Assembly (NCBI RefSeq): GCF_000218625.1
Contig: NC_015672.1
Span: 806,001-870,000, forward strand
Reading direction: 5' to 3'
Length of the DNA: 64,000 nt
From: Flexistipes sinusarabici DSM 4947
Lineage (GTDB): Bacteria; Chrysiogenota; Deferribacteres; Deferribacterales; Flexistipitaceae
Shown: one piece after another, positions 11,934 to 46,104 of the stretch
Layout: each line of letters opens with the position of its first letter
How positions within the stretch are numbered: position 1 is the stretch's first letter
The notes under the pieces: model-generated
The model's database searches: none
The model's input: only the letters and a program-made list of their open reading frames with translations
Told to the model about the DNA's origin: nothing
Program-made: the position numbers and the translations under genes

Positions 11934-11955
11934 GTTGCCTCCTTTTTAATATATT

Positions 11956-11990
11956 CTACATATTTACCAGTCTTTCAGACTGATATTAAG
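11956..11990. repeat. REP-like hairpin, copy A
   Basis: CTACATATTTACCAGTC then a short loop and GACTGATATTAAG. It has the same layout as copies at 22874 and 39541 (ACATATTTACC, hairpin, GGTGCTA) with a different stem. It lies 22 bp upstream of the small glycyl-radical gene. Confidence 0.6.
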
Positions 11991-12125: not shown

Positions 12126-12169
12126 GACCGACCTAAGTGCGAAACTTGAAATGTTTATTTTATAAATAT

Positions 12170-12206
12170 TGTATACACAAGTTTATCGGCTTTCAGCCGA
12201 TGCTAC
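12170..12206. repeat. REP-like hairpin, copy B (overlaps nrdD 3' end)
   Basis: TGTATACACAAGTTTATCGG, a CTTTCAG loop and CCGATGCTAC match copy C at 14542-14578 in reverse. The nrdD stop codon and its last residues (VASAESR) are read from this repeat. Confidence 0.75.
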
Positions 12207-14231
12207 ATGCATTTGCAATTCTTTAAGCTCTTTCATAAGCTTTTCCTGAGCCTCCTGTCTGCAAAGCGGGCAGTTTCCGTACTCACCTTTGATATACCCG
12301 TGTACCGGGCAGATTGAAAAAGTTGGTGTTATTGTGAAGTAGGGGAGTTTATATCCATTTGAGACTTTTCTGATTAGTTCTTTTACAGATGAAGTGTCGT
12401 CCACAGATTCACCGACGAATATATGAAAGACTGTTCCCCCGGTATATTTCGTTTGCAATTTATCCTGATGGTTCAAAGCCTTGAAAAGATCAAGTTTGCA
12501 GTTTACCGGCAGTTGGGTTGAATTAGTATAATAAGGTTTGCTTGTTCCGGCTGTTATAATATCGGGATATTCTTCTTTGTCTTTTTGGGCTAGTCTGTAA
12601 CTGGTACCCTCAGCCGGTGTTGCTTCCAGATTGAACAATATATCATCTTCATCCTGAAATTCCTGCATTTTTTCGTTCATAAAATTCATCATTTTGTCTG
12701 TAAATTCCAGTCCTTCATCATGAGTAATATCCACTCCAATAAAATTCATAAGGGCTTCATTCATACCTATAATTCCAATTGTGTTAAAATGATTACTCCA
12801 GTATTCGCCGAATCTTTCTTTTATATCCGAAAGATAATATTTTGCATAAGGATACAAATTTTCCTCGGTCAGTTTTTCTAATGTTTTTCTTTTTATATTT
12901 AAACTGTTCCTTGCTGTTTCCATAAGTTTTTCAAGATTGCTGAAAAAATCATCTTCACTGTCTGAGGTGTACCCAAGTCTAGGTAGATTGATAGTTACGA
13001 CTCCTATTGACCCTGTTAATGGATTTGCACCGAAAAGACCCCCGCCTCTTTTTCTAAGCTGCCTGTTATCCAACCTCAGCCTGCAGCACATGCTTCTCGC
13101 ATCTTCAGGATCCATGTCGGAGTTTACAAAATTTGCAAAATAAGGCAGTCCATATTTTCCCGTCATTTTCATTAAGTCATCCAGTATTTCTCTGTCCCAG
13201 TCGAAGTCTTTGCTTATATTGTATGTTGGAATGGGAAAAGTAAAAATTCTACCTTTAGCGTCTCCTTCTGCCATTACTTCTATGAATGCTTTATTAATAA
13301 GATCCATTTCGTTTTGAAACTCGCCGTATGTGTTTTCAATAAGTTTTCCGCCGTATACAACACTTTCGTTTTTCATCATGGATGGTACTTCCAGATCAAA
13401 AGTGAGATTTGTGAAAGGGGTCTGAAATCCTACACGGGTTGGAACGTTCAGGTTAAAAATAAATTCCTGGATTCCCTGTTTCACCTCCTTGTAAGTTAAT
13501 TTGTCAAATTTAACATAAGGAGCCAGATATGTGTCGAAGCTTGCCAGAGCCTGAGCTCCTGCTGCTTCTCCCTGGAGGGTATAGAAAAAATTTACAATTT
13601 GTCCCAATGCACTTCTGAAATGTTTCGGGGGTTTACTTTCCACTTTTCCATGGACGCCCCTGAATCCTTTTAAAAGCAAATCCCTTAAGTCCCAGCCGCA
13701 GCAATATACTGACAGAAGGCCCAAATCGTGTATATGAAAATCACCTTTGGTGTGGGCTTCTCTTATTTCTGCAGGATATACTTTATTCAGCCAATATTTT
13801 GCAGTGATGGTGGAGGAGATGAAATTATTTAGTCCTTGAAGTGAAAATGTGGTGTTACTGTTTTCTTTAACTCTCCAGTCAGCACCTTTTATGTAATTTT
13901 CTATTAACTGCTCCATTTCATCAAAAGAGGCTTTCAAGTCGCGTATATCGGAACGCTGCTTTCTATAGAGTATATATGCTTTCGCCGTTTTTGCATGGCC
14001 TTCTTCAATTAGTATTTTTTCGACTTCATCCTGCAATTCTTCCACGGTTATCACACCGATCTCAGCATATTTTTCATTAACAAATTTAACTGTTTGCAGG
14101 GCAAGCTTATTGGCTGTTTTTCTGTCTTCACCACCAACTGCTTTTGCAGCTTTGAAAATTGCATTTGCAATTCGCTCATAATCAAAAGGAACAACTCTTC
14201 CGTCTCTTTTAATTATTTTTTCAAGATTCAT
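12183..14231 (-). CDS. nrdD: Anaerobic (class III) ribonucleoside-triphosphate reductase, large part
   Basis: The 682-residue protein starts after AGAGGGGGAAAC. An ATP-cone occupies about residues 3-95 (KIIKRDGRVVPFDYERIANA). The catalytic barrel contains FHIHDLGLLSVYCCGWDL, GFQTPFTNLTFDLEVP and DARSMCCRLRLDNRQL, where the paired Cys are active-site candidates. Near the C-terminus a zinc knuckle reads CPVHGYIKGEYGNCPLC. In usual NrdD proteins the glycyl-radical loop follows directly; here a helix (RQEAQEKLMKELKELQ) and REP-derived residues end the chain. The loop is instead found in the small gene at 11724-11933. It reduces NTPs to dNTPs under anoxia with formate as reductant. A cobalamin riboswitch lies upstream. 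Confidence 0.92.
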   Translation of the reverse strand: MNLEKIIKRDGRVVPFDYERIANAIFKAAKAVGGEDRKTANKLALQTVKFVNEKYAEIGVITVEELQDEVEKILIEEGHAKTAKAYILYRKQRSDIRDLKASFDEMEQLIENYIKGADWRVKENSNTTFSLQGLNNFISSTITAKYWLNKVYPAEIREAHTKGDFHIHDLGLLSVYCCGWDLRDLLLKGFRGVHGKVESKPPKHFRSALGQIVNFFYTLQGEAAGAQALASFDTYLAPYVKFDKLTYKEVKQGIQEFIFNLNVPTRVGFQTPFTNLTFDLEVPSMMKNESVVYGGKLIENTYGEFQNEMDLINKAFIEVMAEGDAKGRIFTFPIPTYNISKDFDWDREILDDLMKMTGKYGLPYFANFVNSDMDPEDARSMCCRLRLDNRQLRKRGGGLFGANPLTGSIGVVTINLPRLGYTSDSEDDFFSNLEKLMETARNSLNIKRKTLEKLTEENLYPYAKYYLSDIKERFGEYWSNHFNTIGIIGMNEALMNFIGVDITHDEGLEFTDKMMNFMNEKMQEFQDEDDILFNLEATPAEGTSYRLAQKDKEEYPDIITAGTSKPYYTNSTQLPVNCKLDLFKALNHQDKLQTKYTGGTVFHIFVGESVDDTSSVKELIRKVSNGYKLPYFTITPTFSICPVHGYIKGEYGNCPLCRQEAQEKLMKELKELQMHVASAESR

Positions 14232-14468: not shown

Positions 14469-14500
14469 TCCACCCTCCGTAGATTTTACCGTTATGACGG

Positions 14501-14735
14501 TCAGGTTAGATATCCTGGCTTGCCATCTCTTCTGTCTGCCTGTAGCATCGGCCAAAGGCCGATAAATTTGTGTACACAATAAGTCAGGCAGACAGAAAAC
14601 CTACTAACCGGCCTTCCCACCCCGCCCCAAAATTAATTTAGGTAATTTTGGGGCGGGACAGTGGCCAAAAAAAGCTTTCGTCCGGCTTACAGTTGCGGGG
14701 GCAGCACCGGCTTTCCACCGGTTTCCCTAACCTGA
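14501..14735 (-). promoter_or_regulatory. Cobalamin riboswitch upstream of nrdD
   Basis: Read on the minus strand, the conserved blocks appear in order. GGGAAACCGGTGGAAA is followed by GGTGCTGCCCCCGCAACTG and TAAGCC, then GGCCACTGTCCCG, GGGAAGGCCGG and AGCCAGGATA. The closing P1 stem is TCAGGTTAG (14735-14727) with CTAACCTGA (14509-14501). This is the B12 element. It is normally an OFF switch in front of B12 transport genes or B12-independent isozymes. Class III reductase needs no B12, so repression by B12 in favour of a class II (B12-dependent) enzyme elsewhere makes sense. The nearest following frame is the 36-residue leader; nrdD starts 270 nt downstream. A REP hairpin sits inside a peripheral loop. 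Confidence 0.87.
14542..14578. repeat. REP-like hairpin, copy C (inside riboswitch loop)
   Basis: GTAGCATCGGCC, AAA, GGCCGATAAATTTG and TGTACACA match copy B in reverse complement. On the minus strand it lies between TCTGTCTGCCTG and CAGGCAGACAGA, a 12-bp stem of the riboswitch periphery, so it occupies the loop of that stem. Confidence 0.8.
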
Positions 14736-14868
14736 TTAAAGAGTACCAAACTTATACTCGCCTTTCAACAAAAAAGACAAAAAAATTACAGAAAGCCATT
14801 ATAATATCTTTGGATAATTCGGAATGTGCGGCTGGAAATGCCGTTATGAGTGATAGGTGAATTCAAAG

Positions 14869-22710: not shown

Positions 22711-22738
22711 TCCCCCTCCTATCAAAGAGTTAGGAGGG
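22711..22738. repeat. CCTCCTATCAAAGAGTTAGGAGG hairpin-type repeat (arms CCTCCTA/TAGGAGG)
   Basis: A 7-bp stem encloses TCAAAGAGT. A related sequence in reverse, with the core ACTCTTTGATAGAAGGGGGA, lies at about 60889-60917. It follows bioC by 24 nt and may act as its transcript end, though no T-run follows. Confidence 0.5.
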
Positions 22739-22971
22739 CATACATTACAGCTGGCGGACTATCCGGCAAAACTTTCCAATCTTATGAGAAAAACAGTTTC
22801 CATAAATACGAAGGAAAGTACAAGGATAATGCTCAGGGTGGTTTCTAAGCCTGAAGAATATCAGAAGTCAATTTGATGTGTTCCACATATTTACCAGCCC
22901 TTGCTGGTGCTAATAGTGCCCTGGTTTATTCAAGTAAAATTTTACGAAATAAAAAAATCTGTGGTGAATAA
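22735..22971 (+). pseudogene. C-terminal fragment of IS1634-like transposase, interrupted by a REP hairpin
   Basis: Read in one frame it gives KLSNLMRKTVSINTKESTR and later VSKPEEYQKSI, then a REP unit, then YSSKILRNKK. This matches the tail of the IS1634-like element at 44.3 kb (KLSNHMRMTVSMNTEENAR, SKTEEHQKSI, YSSKILRNKK). Only the last 60 or so codons remain. No other part of the element is seen around it. Beyond it, 22972-23107 is AT-rich with a short match to the repeat at 12079. Confidence 0.8.
22874..22912. repeat. REP-like hairpin, copy D (inside transposase relic)
   Basis: GATGTGTTCCACATATTTAC then CAGCCCTTGCTGGTGCT. Comparison with the full-length element at 44.3 kb shows the relic is continuous on either side (CAATTT before, ATA-GGCC-like after), so this is a clean insertion of about 38 bp. 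It nearly equals copy E at 39541 in reverse. Confidence 0.85.
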
Positions 22972-39321: not shown

Positions 39322-39653
39322 CTGGCATCACCCCAAAAATTATATAAAAGTTTTGTTTTACATATACTTAGCTAACATGACACTGATTTCAATGTAATTT
39401 GCACGCATTTCGCAGCCGAAACTCGAAACTACTGCCGCTAACCGTCTACACCCTCCTCTCATAATTGTTTTTATTTGCAAATATTTATCCATTTTACATT
39501 CCAACACAGGGTGTGACCGCTAACCGGCAGTACGTTTCTCTAGCACCAGCCCGTAAGGCTGGTAAATATGTGGAACACATCCAACATCGGCTGCTTCATT
39601 TGTGCAAATTACATTGAAAAATATTTGCACTGCGAAAAATGGGGTGACGTCAG
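39322..39653. mobile_element. MITE (332 bp) derived from the IS4-like element at 15.8 kb
   Basis: The ends CTGGCATCACCCC and, in reverse complement, CTGACGTCACCCC match the IS4-like termini. The right 20 bp inside (CTGCGAAAAATGGGGTGACG) is identical to the IS right end. A perfect 10-bp duplication, GCGTAAAAAG, flanks it (39312-39321 and 39654-39663). There is no transposase. Inner inverted repeats include TTCAATGTAATTTGCAC (39388-39404) with its complement at 39602-39618, and ACTGCCG/CGGCAGT blocks, so the whole unit can fold on itself. A REP hairpin is nested inside. 39228-39311 shows no feature. Confidence 0.9.
39541..39581. repeat. REP-like hairpin, copy E (inside MITE)
   Basis: TAGCACCAGCC, CGTAA, GGCTGGTAAATATG and TGGAACACAT form the reverse complement of copy D at 22874-22912 with only the loop differing. 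Confidence 0.85.
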
Positions 39654-39666
39654 GCGTAAAAAGTAT

Positions 39667-43803: not shown

Positions 43804-44202
43804 TCAACCAAAAATCTCTTTAAACGTTTTTAACTTACTATCCTTTTCCGAAAGATTCGGCTTATCAATACCGTATTCTTCTAAAGGCCATTTGATGTCT
43901 AAATGCGAATCATTCCAAATAATCCCCGAATCACATTCTGGCGAATATTCAGAGCCGGAGACTTTATACAATATTTCTGCATTTTCTGAAAGTGTTAAAA
44001 AAGCATGGGCAAAGCCTTGCGGGATCCAGAGCATTAATTTGTTTTCATCAGAGAGCTCATAAGCAACCCAATGCCCGAATGTAGGACTGCCTGCTCTTAT
44101 ATCTACTGCAACATCATATATTTTACCATTTATACATCTTACAAATTTCCCTTGTTCTTTTGGATATTTTTGAAAATGCAGTCCGCGCAAAACACCTTTT
44201 GA
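43804..44202 (-). pseudogene. rfbC: dTDP-4-dehydrorhamnose 3,5-epimerase, 5' end destroyed by IS insertion
   Basis: The remaining frame reads SKGVLRGLHFQKYPKEQGKF and continues with GKIYDVAVDIRAGSPTFGHW, MLWIPQGFAHAFLTLSE and YSPECDSGIIWNDSHLDIKW, matching RmlC from its conserved VLRGLHFQ block onward. About 50-55 N-terminal residues are missing: the frame runs straight into the inverted repeat of the IS1634-like element. No matching N-terminal piece is found on the far side of the element. Translation from an internal ATG (44190) would lack part of the cupin fold. Confidence 0.88.
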
Positions 44203-44267
44203 GGATTTAGCCCAACTTTGCCAAAAAAATGCATAAAGTGCTGGTGTGTAAAGAAGCGGATTTAAAA

Positions 44268-46104
44268 TTATTCACTACAGACTTTTTTATTTCGTAAAAT
44301 TTTGCTTGAATACCCCAAGGCCTTATAAATTGACTTTTGGTGTTCTTCAGTCTTAGAAGTCACCCTCTGCATTATCCTTGCATTTTCCTCCGTATTCATC
44401 GAAACCGTCATCCGCATATGATTAGAAAGTTTTTTTACGAACTGTACGCCAACTGTAATGTATACCCTCTGATTTCAACTTCCTCCTAAGATTATGAACC
44501 AAATGATACGCCAAAACACTTATAAAAAGATGACCCTCCACAGCTGATTCCTTGCTGTGATATACAGGCCTTAAACCCAATTCACTCTTCAATGTCCTGA
44601 ATGTGGATTCCACATCATTAAGCATTACATATATATCCCATATCTCCTGCTCACTTAAGTCAGTGAAATTTGTCCGGATTACATAGTGGCCGTCAAGTGT
44701 ACCGGAAAGTTTCTCCTCATCAACTCTCCAGCGTATATCTGCTGCATTGCCAGAATCTTCTTTTTTCACAACGTCTATATCATAATATCCCGATACCTTG
44801 CTGCATTTACTCTTAAGTCTGCCAATACGCTCAAGAACCTTCTCATAACGCTTAACACCATTCTTCTTGAATAATGAAGACCGTATATTCTCAAGACCTT
44901 CTTCAAATCTCTGCCTAAACCTGTCTTTAATACCACCCTCTTTAATCTCCCGCATCTCACTGCTTACACATAAAAAACTCTCACCATCTACAATATTCAA
45001 TTTGCCTTTCACACTATAAGAATCATTCTTTATCCTGATATCCTCTCCGTCTGAATAATCAAGGGCTGTATCCTTCTTCCTGGAGACTGCAATATAATTA
45101 TACCCGGAATCCTTTATATACCCTAAATTCTCCTCCGAAGCTATTCCGGCATCTATTACTACTGTAGGCTTTACCTGTAAATTAACCTGTGATGATAAAT
45201 CCGTTACTATATCAATTAACGTCTTCGTTTCTGATTGATTGCCCTCATATATCTTGCTGCATATCGGAAAACCTTCCTCATTCAACACTACTCCCAGTGT
45301 CACAAGGGGGCAATCTGAACGCTTCTGCTTTGATTTACCACGCTTAGCCTTTTTGTTATTTTTCTGGATACCTTCAAAATGTGTGTTCGTAAGATCATAA
45401 AGCAAAATCTTATTTTCAAAGTTAAACAACTGCTGTTCATACTCAAAAAGTTTTTTCTCTATCTCTTCTGAATACTTAAAAAGACTTTTCCGATACACGG
45501 TAAAACTGCCTCAGCGATTCCCTGTGATAATTTATTCCAAGTAATTCAAATAAACCCGACTTCTCCTTTAACCATTCATACGTATTAAGTTCACTGCCCG
45601 GATTAAGCATCCGACCTATTATTAAGCCCTGGATATATCTATCTCGGATTCCGTGAAACCAAGAGATTTCAGCATATCTCCTATACCAAGCTCTTTAAAT
45701 GATTCATTGCATATATACTCTCCGCCTATGCTCCGGGGCTCTGATACTTCTATACTGGATACATCCACTTGCTCGTATTCCGGCTCATAAGAATTCTCCT
45801 TTGATTCAGGTTGCTTTGAAGACGCTGTGATCATATTCAATTTTGCTTTCTTTGCATAAGTATGGGCAAGCTCTTCCGTCTCCTCATCAGGCTTGAATAC
45901 AGGTTCCTCATAACCGTCAAGCAATTGCTCTATACGGTTTGCAAGTTCTTTTAACTGCATGGGAGGAATATGAGACAGATCTCCCATGTCCATAACAATA
46001 CGTTGTCTGGGACCCTTGGGAGTACGGTATGATTCCACCAGCTTATAGGCAGTATACTTTTTTCCGGTCTTTTTATTATTGGTTATGTATGATCTTATAA
46101 ACAT
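44268..46104 (-). pseudogene. IS1634-like transposase with three frameshifts
   Basis: The N-terminal piece (46104-45622; MFIRSYITNNKKTGKKYTAY, then SYRTPKGPRQRIVMDMGDL) and the central piece (45498-44422; ILLYDLTNTHFEG with the first Asp, PTVVIDAGIASEENL, and IYVMLNDVESTFRTLKSELG with the Glu) belong to one protein. Shifts are needed near 45635, near 45482 and at an A7 run near 44437. After these the restored tail reads KLSNHMRMTVSMNT to KVCSE. The product cannot be active without programmed frameshifting at three places, which is unlikely. Confidence 0.88.

Follow-up and report, generated by a model that had tools for sequence, protein, structure and literature searches.

A two-hairpin REP-like unit of Flexistipes with clean empty sites, a degenerate target motif and copies nested in its own family

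In the chromosome of Flexistipes sinusarabici MAS10T, the relic of an IS1634-family element is interrupted by a short palindromic sequence, and this locus raises the question of what that sequence is, how it arrived there and which enzyme could have moved it. The relic lies within the stretch of DNA analysed here (the window: 64,000 nucleotides, bases 806001-870000 of the 2,526,590 bp single-contig genome, G000), in a genome for which its authors counted 86 transposase genes (PMC3236037). Two further Flexistipes species, G001 (99% complete) and G002 (88% complete), served for comparison. A first-pass annotation of the window had claimed a clean insertion of about 38 bp into the relic, and a BLASTN comparison of the relic with the window bore this out: the alignment with 44469-44201 on the minus strand (68% overall) was broken by one gap of ~38 bases, at AGTCAATTT|ATA. 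The element at 44.3 kb belongs to the IS1634 family (NCBIfam NF033559, E 2.6e-76), and for some 11 other IS1634 copies in the genome the alignment runs straight across the junction, with no insert. The inserted unit is GATGTGTTCCACATATTTACCAGCCCTTGCTGGTGCTA (38 bp, 22875-22912); the annotation had given 22874-22912, with the correct end and a start one base early, and unit ends as placed by hand carry a boundary ambiguity of one base.

Table 1. Positions of unit copies, their hosts and related genes (window coordinates unless a genome is named).
Feature	Position	Strand	Evidence or remark
Mobile two-stem hairpin unit, 38 bp, in IS1634 relic	22875..22912	+	covariance model 51.0 bits, E 5e-10
IS1634-family relic hosting the unit	22735..22971	+	similarity to 44469-44201 (minus strand)
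IS1634-family element	44201..45498	-	NCBIfam NF033559; 44469-44201 part is the paralogous empty site
Unit copy in multi-copy MITE-like repeat, site B of the repeat	39541..39581	-	56.4 bits
Unit copy in terminal loop of peripheral stem, cobalamin riboswitch	14543..14580	-	covariance model; orthologous site empty in G002
Cobalamin riboswitch (RF00174), unit-interrupted, upstream of nrdD	14488..14775	-	64.4 bits, gathering 31.5
Unit copy, TCGG-stem subtype	12168..12205	+	43.2 bits
Decayed unit copy	11948..11988	+	34.8 bits
RAYT-like gene that has a REP family of its own	G000:C1:2043045-2043632 (L040); G001 C25 (L115)		

Across the family the unit is 38-42 bases long and consists, in order, of a weak stem (ATGTG-NNN-CACAT type), ATTTA, a strong stem and TGCTA. 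The arms of the weak stem change in step (ATGTG/CACAT, ATGTA/TACAT, TTGTG/CACAA, TTGTA/TACAA, ATGCC/GGCAT), and the strong stem occurs as CCAGCC, CCAGTC, TCGGTC, TCGGCC, CCGGCC and others; the two stem subtypes distinguished by the annotation were both found in the window. Pair counting over 22 distinct units gave 95% standard pairs, with two-sided changes in 9 of the 12 pairs of the two helices. The covariation score of this structure was reached by none of 500 shuffles, and no slid structure came near it. Because the upstream palindrome covaries too, a reading of the unit as a single-hairpin REP was rejected. The layout proposed at first (ACAxATTTA, a stem, then TGCTA) had captured the TGCTA end and the strong stem, its 5′ part being the second covarying stem; this stem, the riboswitch location of the copy at 14543 and the nesting of units had been overlooked.

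A covariance model built on units gathered genome-wide returned exactly five credible matches in the window (E from 4e-6 to 2e-11), the number claimed before, among them the reversed, near-identical unit already placed at 39541-39581. In the three Flexistipes genomes the matches numbered about 90, 129 and 43 (approximate counts, the scoring having been capped); the same model found no unit in the other 43 of the 46 genomes of the order, and the family is genus-restricted. The pattern ACANATTTA-N(8-30)-TGCTA had 64 matches in the genome; its reversed control had 3. When strong hairpins of CCAG type followed by TGCTA were sought apart from the unit, none were found save in units split by another unit, and no larger autonomous element sharing the unit's ends was detected, all CCAG-hairpin-TGCTA matches being full or nested-split units. 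A wider pattern scan of genome contigs gave repeated matches in Deferribacteraceae UBA1873; nine single matches (Psychrobacter, other Gammaproteobacteria, Bacteroidales and Verrucomicrobia) were set aside as lying at about chance level for that pattern size by our own estimate, and three viral matches were likewise discounted.

An orthologous empty site was found in a cobalamin riboswitch, downstream of which lies a gene (12183-14231, minus strand) for an NrdD-type anaerobic ribonucleotide reductase (PF13597). The unit is present in this riboswitch in G000 and G001, whereas the riboswitch of G002 lacks exactly ATTGTGTACACAAATTTATCGGCCTTTGGCCGATGCTA in the loop, so that the alignment gap is the exact 38-base unit. 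The interrupted riboswitch still scores above the Rfam threshold (64.4 bits versus 31.5), and its predicted fold keeps the peripheral stem, with the two hairpins of the unit atop it. Here a mobile hairpin has settled in a riboswitch stem loop and left the aptamer recognisable, a simple way in which mobile DNA can lengthen structured RNAs. G002 carries a separate unit between the riboswitch and nrdD (L079).

A third host was an IS110-like transposase gene, so identified from a reading of its translation, which is empty in G000 (L123, ...GCCATTATTGATGAGAATG...), filled by a single unit in G001 (L127) and both filled and nested in another G001 copy (L139); since four bases (GATG) are common to the unit end and the target, the junction at this site is ambiguous. 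No target duplication was found at the IS1634, IS110 or riboswitch empty sites, and the terminal inverted repeats and target duplication of a DDE-type MITE were absent, the unit ends also differing from each other (TAGCA versus ACAT[C/T]). Orthologous empty sites were also sought for three further copies (L084, L035, L108), whose flanks were not recovered whole in the relatives. The many dispersed copies and the clean empty sites, one of them orthologous, agree with the earlier picture of a mobile REP-like unit with consistent ends; the two observations named beforehand as contrary to it, a want of empty-site partners in relatives and inconsistent ends among genome-wide copies, were both looked for and neither was seen. 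Of the active dispersal also claimed, the sequence comparisons point to dispersal on the scale of species divergence, not to present activity; neither an excision product nor a fresh insertion was seen.

Read with the strong hairpin first, an inserted unit has the form YNNC | TAGCA - strong stem - TAAAT - weak stem ending CAT(C/T) | A. The insertion motif YNNC^A comes from 22 distinct sites, possibly not all independent in that some may share descent. Position -4 is a pyrimidine in 22/22 sites (p 2e-7) and C in 14, position -1 is C in 12 of 22, and position +1 is A or C in every case (A in 17 with that of L035 taken as A). These three positions stood far above the remaining ones when compared with random-site controls, and the flanks of the unit are unrelated at about 20 sites. 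The motif is strong at -4 and +1 but degenerate, and in this it differs from the stricter tetranucleotides of IS608 and ISDra2. The 3′ tetranucleotide of the unit itself is CATC, CATT or CAAT, then A, and so resembles the target motif.

Two subterminal hairpins, the lack of duplication, the 5′ target, the similar end tetranucleotide and the tag NTAG placed two bases ahead of the stem together form a layout typical of IS200/IS605 and TnpA-REP substrates, and from it we infer movement as single-stranded DNA by a Y1 enzyme. The unit is thus probably an orphan REP-like, non-autonomous two-hairpin element moved as ssDNA by a Y1 (HUH) transposase in trans. The unit with its ends, its empty sites, its target motif and its nesting is an observation, and the empty sites show that it enters between YNNC and A without duplication of the target; the single-stranded route, the class of enzyme and the choice of enzyme belong to the model. 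According to this model, the unit would be cut and joined as single-stranded DNA by a transposase encoded elsewhere, most plausibly one of the RAYT-like proteins of the genus. TnpA-REP cleaves at CT or CA, and which of them is cut depends on a tetranucleotide that lies 5′ to the hairpin (PMC8266576).

Candidate enzymes are encoded in two of the three Flexistipes genomes, in the form of RAYT-like Y1 genes: the F. sinusarabici genome has three Y1_Tnp loci and G001 at least four, whereas none was found in G002 (88% complete) despite its 43 units. For the two Y1 proteins tested, the best NCBIfam match was REP-associated tyrosine transposase, below its cut-off. All Y1 loci of G000 and G001 are free of unit copies to a distance of about 1.5 kb. 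The annotation had named a RAYT as the driver; RAYT-like genes are indeed present elsewhere in the genome, none is flanked by the unit, and one has a REP family of its own. The flanks of this 232-aa RAYT carry another hairpin, CACACTT-NNN-AAGTGTG, of which the three genomes have 8, 12 and 5 copies. The hairpin abutting the start of this RAYT (TTGGTGCTG) and the foot of the unit (GGTGCTA) are alike over 7 bases, possibly by chance; the REP family of the RAYT and the unit share the short foot TGGTGCT and are otherwise unrelated. A second Y1 group of ~297-308 aa (L041, L042, L116-L118), with two members in G000 and three similar ones in G001, has no flanking unit and may be related to a published Y1 subclass of long proteins without REPs (PMC6006769). 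Neither TnpB (PF07282) nor an IS605/TnpB parent was found in the genus Flexistipes; nor was any IS200/IS605 parent with tnpA and/or tnpB sharing the unit's ends detected, there being no free CCAG-type hairpin and no unit near tnpA-like genes.

Because no RAYT is flanked by the unit, we also consider that a non-Y1 enzyme moves it as a novel substrate, an unlikely alternative. Such an enzyme could be of DEDD/IS110 type or a site-specific recombinase, or the unit could integrate as a reverse-transcribed short RNA; all three routes achieve integration without target duplication. The orphan status of the unit relative to Y1 genes, the number of units in G002 beside the missing Y1 gene and the presence of an IS110-like transposase gene (L123, by the reading of its translation) would all fit. 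Against this, the search for a larger element with such ends came up empty, and the two hairpins together with the flanking tetranucleotide suit Y1 substrates better.

The unit itself carries CCAC^ATATTTA, which matches the target motif, and because its sequence holds so good a target, units insert into units. Many are interrupted at this point by another unit in the opposite orientation, and units within units, up to four levels deep, share nearly always the same entry point. At one locus a single unit in G000 (L135) is found in G001 as the same unit with two more inside (L144). Copies of one intergenic repeat show the same progression: the compared segment measures 63 bases with a single unit (L013/L014), 102 with one nested (L058) and 182 with the four-level nest (L055/L060), in which a CCAGCC unit holds a TCGGTC unit, which holds a GCTA-stem unit, which holds a CCAGTC unit. 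Here the third level enters the second at another point, CCGAT^AAATTTG, also 5′ of A. The identical junction recurs across host contexts in at least seven combinations, some of which may not be independent. A search of the literature on nested palindromic elements found nothing relevant. The L013-type context had been considered as an IS, a reading dropped on the evidence of flanking genes that suggest an intergenic repeat. A longer intergenic repeat with the palindrome CGAGCACTTAATGCTTTAAGTGCTCGG hosts most of the CCAGTC/TCCGCC doublets (e.g. L005, L029, L039).

These abundant inverted doublets (CCAGTC with TCCGCC) can themselves be read as nested units, and their uninterrupted outer unit survives in L062. 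On this reading, entry of units into units at CCAC^ATATTTA gives rise to the inverted doublets, and these were later copied within larger repeats. Inverted REP pairs, a feature of REPINs and BIMEs, are thus present, and one might suppose that the family is a relic REPIN whose cognate RAYT is extinct, the singles being decayed halves of doublets and nothing moving today. The common doublets, the lack of a cognate RAYT and the copies common to G000 and G001 would fit this account. We regard it as improbable, since clean empty sites for single units exist in the riboswitch and the IS1634 relic, hosts are seen both without and with a nested unit, and insertions differ among G000, G001 and G002. 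The rule that the doublet is mobile and singlets are remnants fails here on the clean single-unit insertions and the stepwise nesting. These empty sites and hosts show the single unit to be what is inserted, with doublets secondary.

That the hairpins are passive, copied only inside IS elements and MITE-like repeats, is very improbable: many copies do ride in repeats (among them the IS21-type element and the MITE-like repeat at 39.5 kb), but this reading is already contradicted by the exact orthologous empty site, by nesting at a fixed point and by the unrelated flanks at about 20 sites, which need insertion of the unit itself.

Returning to the orphan, probably Y1-mobilized unit, its closest parallels are the GTAG REPs and their TnpA-REP (group 3, e.g. 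Marinomonas REPMb), which likewise have a short perfect stem and, ahead of it, a tetranucleotide that ends in TAG and two further bases (N-TAG-CA-stem in the unit), many copies, head-to-head dimers and Y1 genes in the genome (PMC8266576, PMC3733652). The unit shares with REPs the form of a short palindrome of 20-50 nt in many copies. It differs from GTAG REPs in having no fixed GTAG: TAG(C) is conserved in most copies, while the preceding base (C 12, G 5, T 4, A 1; n=22) varies, being supplied by the target. It has, moreover, an extra conserved stem on the other side, no RAYT flanked by it, and a single rather than a dimer as the insertion unit. The REPINs of Pseudomonas fluorescens SBW25 are similar as inverted hairpin pairs dispersed as non-autonomous DNA, and there Bertels and Rainey proposed the doublet as the mobile unit and singlets as remnants (PMC3116915), whereas here it is the single that moves, each doublet examined consisting of one unit within another. 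CGTC-tagged REPs, palindromic repeats without a dedicated transposase in RAYT-bearing species (PMC3733652), are by analogy a precedent for orphan families; the unit lacks the CGTC tag, has another tail and carries an additional stem. Subterminal hairpins and the lack of target duplication also recall derivatives of IS200/IS605. In Haloquadratum walsbyi, PATEs are short, have no transposase, make no target duplication and have near-terminal palindromes, and SMR-A elements prefer palindromes of other mobile elements (PMC3119063); together they set a precedent for tiny elements that insert without duplication and favour the palindromes of others. PATEs, however, are IS605-related and measure 52 bp when terminal-only, against about 39 bp for the unit in a genus without a TnpB gene, and SMR-A is about 110 bp long with terminal inverted repeats, whereas the unit targets its own family.

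The unit is therefore REP-like in behaviour, yet it departs from the fixed GTAG, the flanking cognate RAYT and the doublet rule of REPINs. Tentatively, and with some doubt, it could be assigned to a distinct class of orphan two-stem ssDNA elements that are moved by some enzyme which is not a cognate RAYT and that take their own folded family as preferred targets, with self-nesting as a general origin of doublets. How REPs move remains for the most part a matter of inference, since few cases offer clean empty sites or a target motif; the Flexistipes family provides empty sites of both kinds, paralogous and orthologous, together with a motif for insertion and, at single loci, the sequence of events. 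This points to one hairpin unit being able to move by itself, and to self-insertion as a possible source of inverted doublets. The excess of heterodimers among REP dimers has no obvious explanation (PMC3733652); self-insertion as the origin of inverted doublets offers an answer, in that a heterodimer bias would follow from self-nesting, if true.

Several hosts carry units in further arrangements. The MITE-like repeat (~300 bp; window 39360-39660; loci L002, L006, L010, L020) offers three or more distinct sites of unit insertion, and its copies differ in which of these are occupied. In the IS21-type element (L001, L009, L011, L015, L018) the unit cuts short a protein that reads, in translation, as IstB-like; with at least five copies, the interrupted element may still have spread. 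At L028 and L045 the upstream reading frame ends exactly in a TAA stop that the unit makes by inserting after a T (T|AATG); at L028, in both G000 and G001, the unit is also followed directly by the start codon of a CysQ-like gene.
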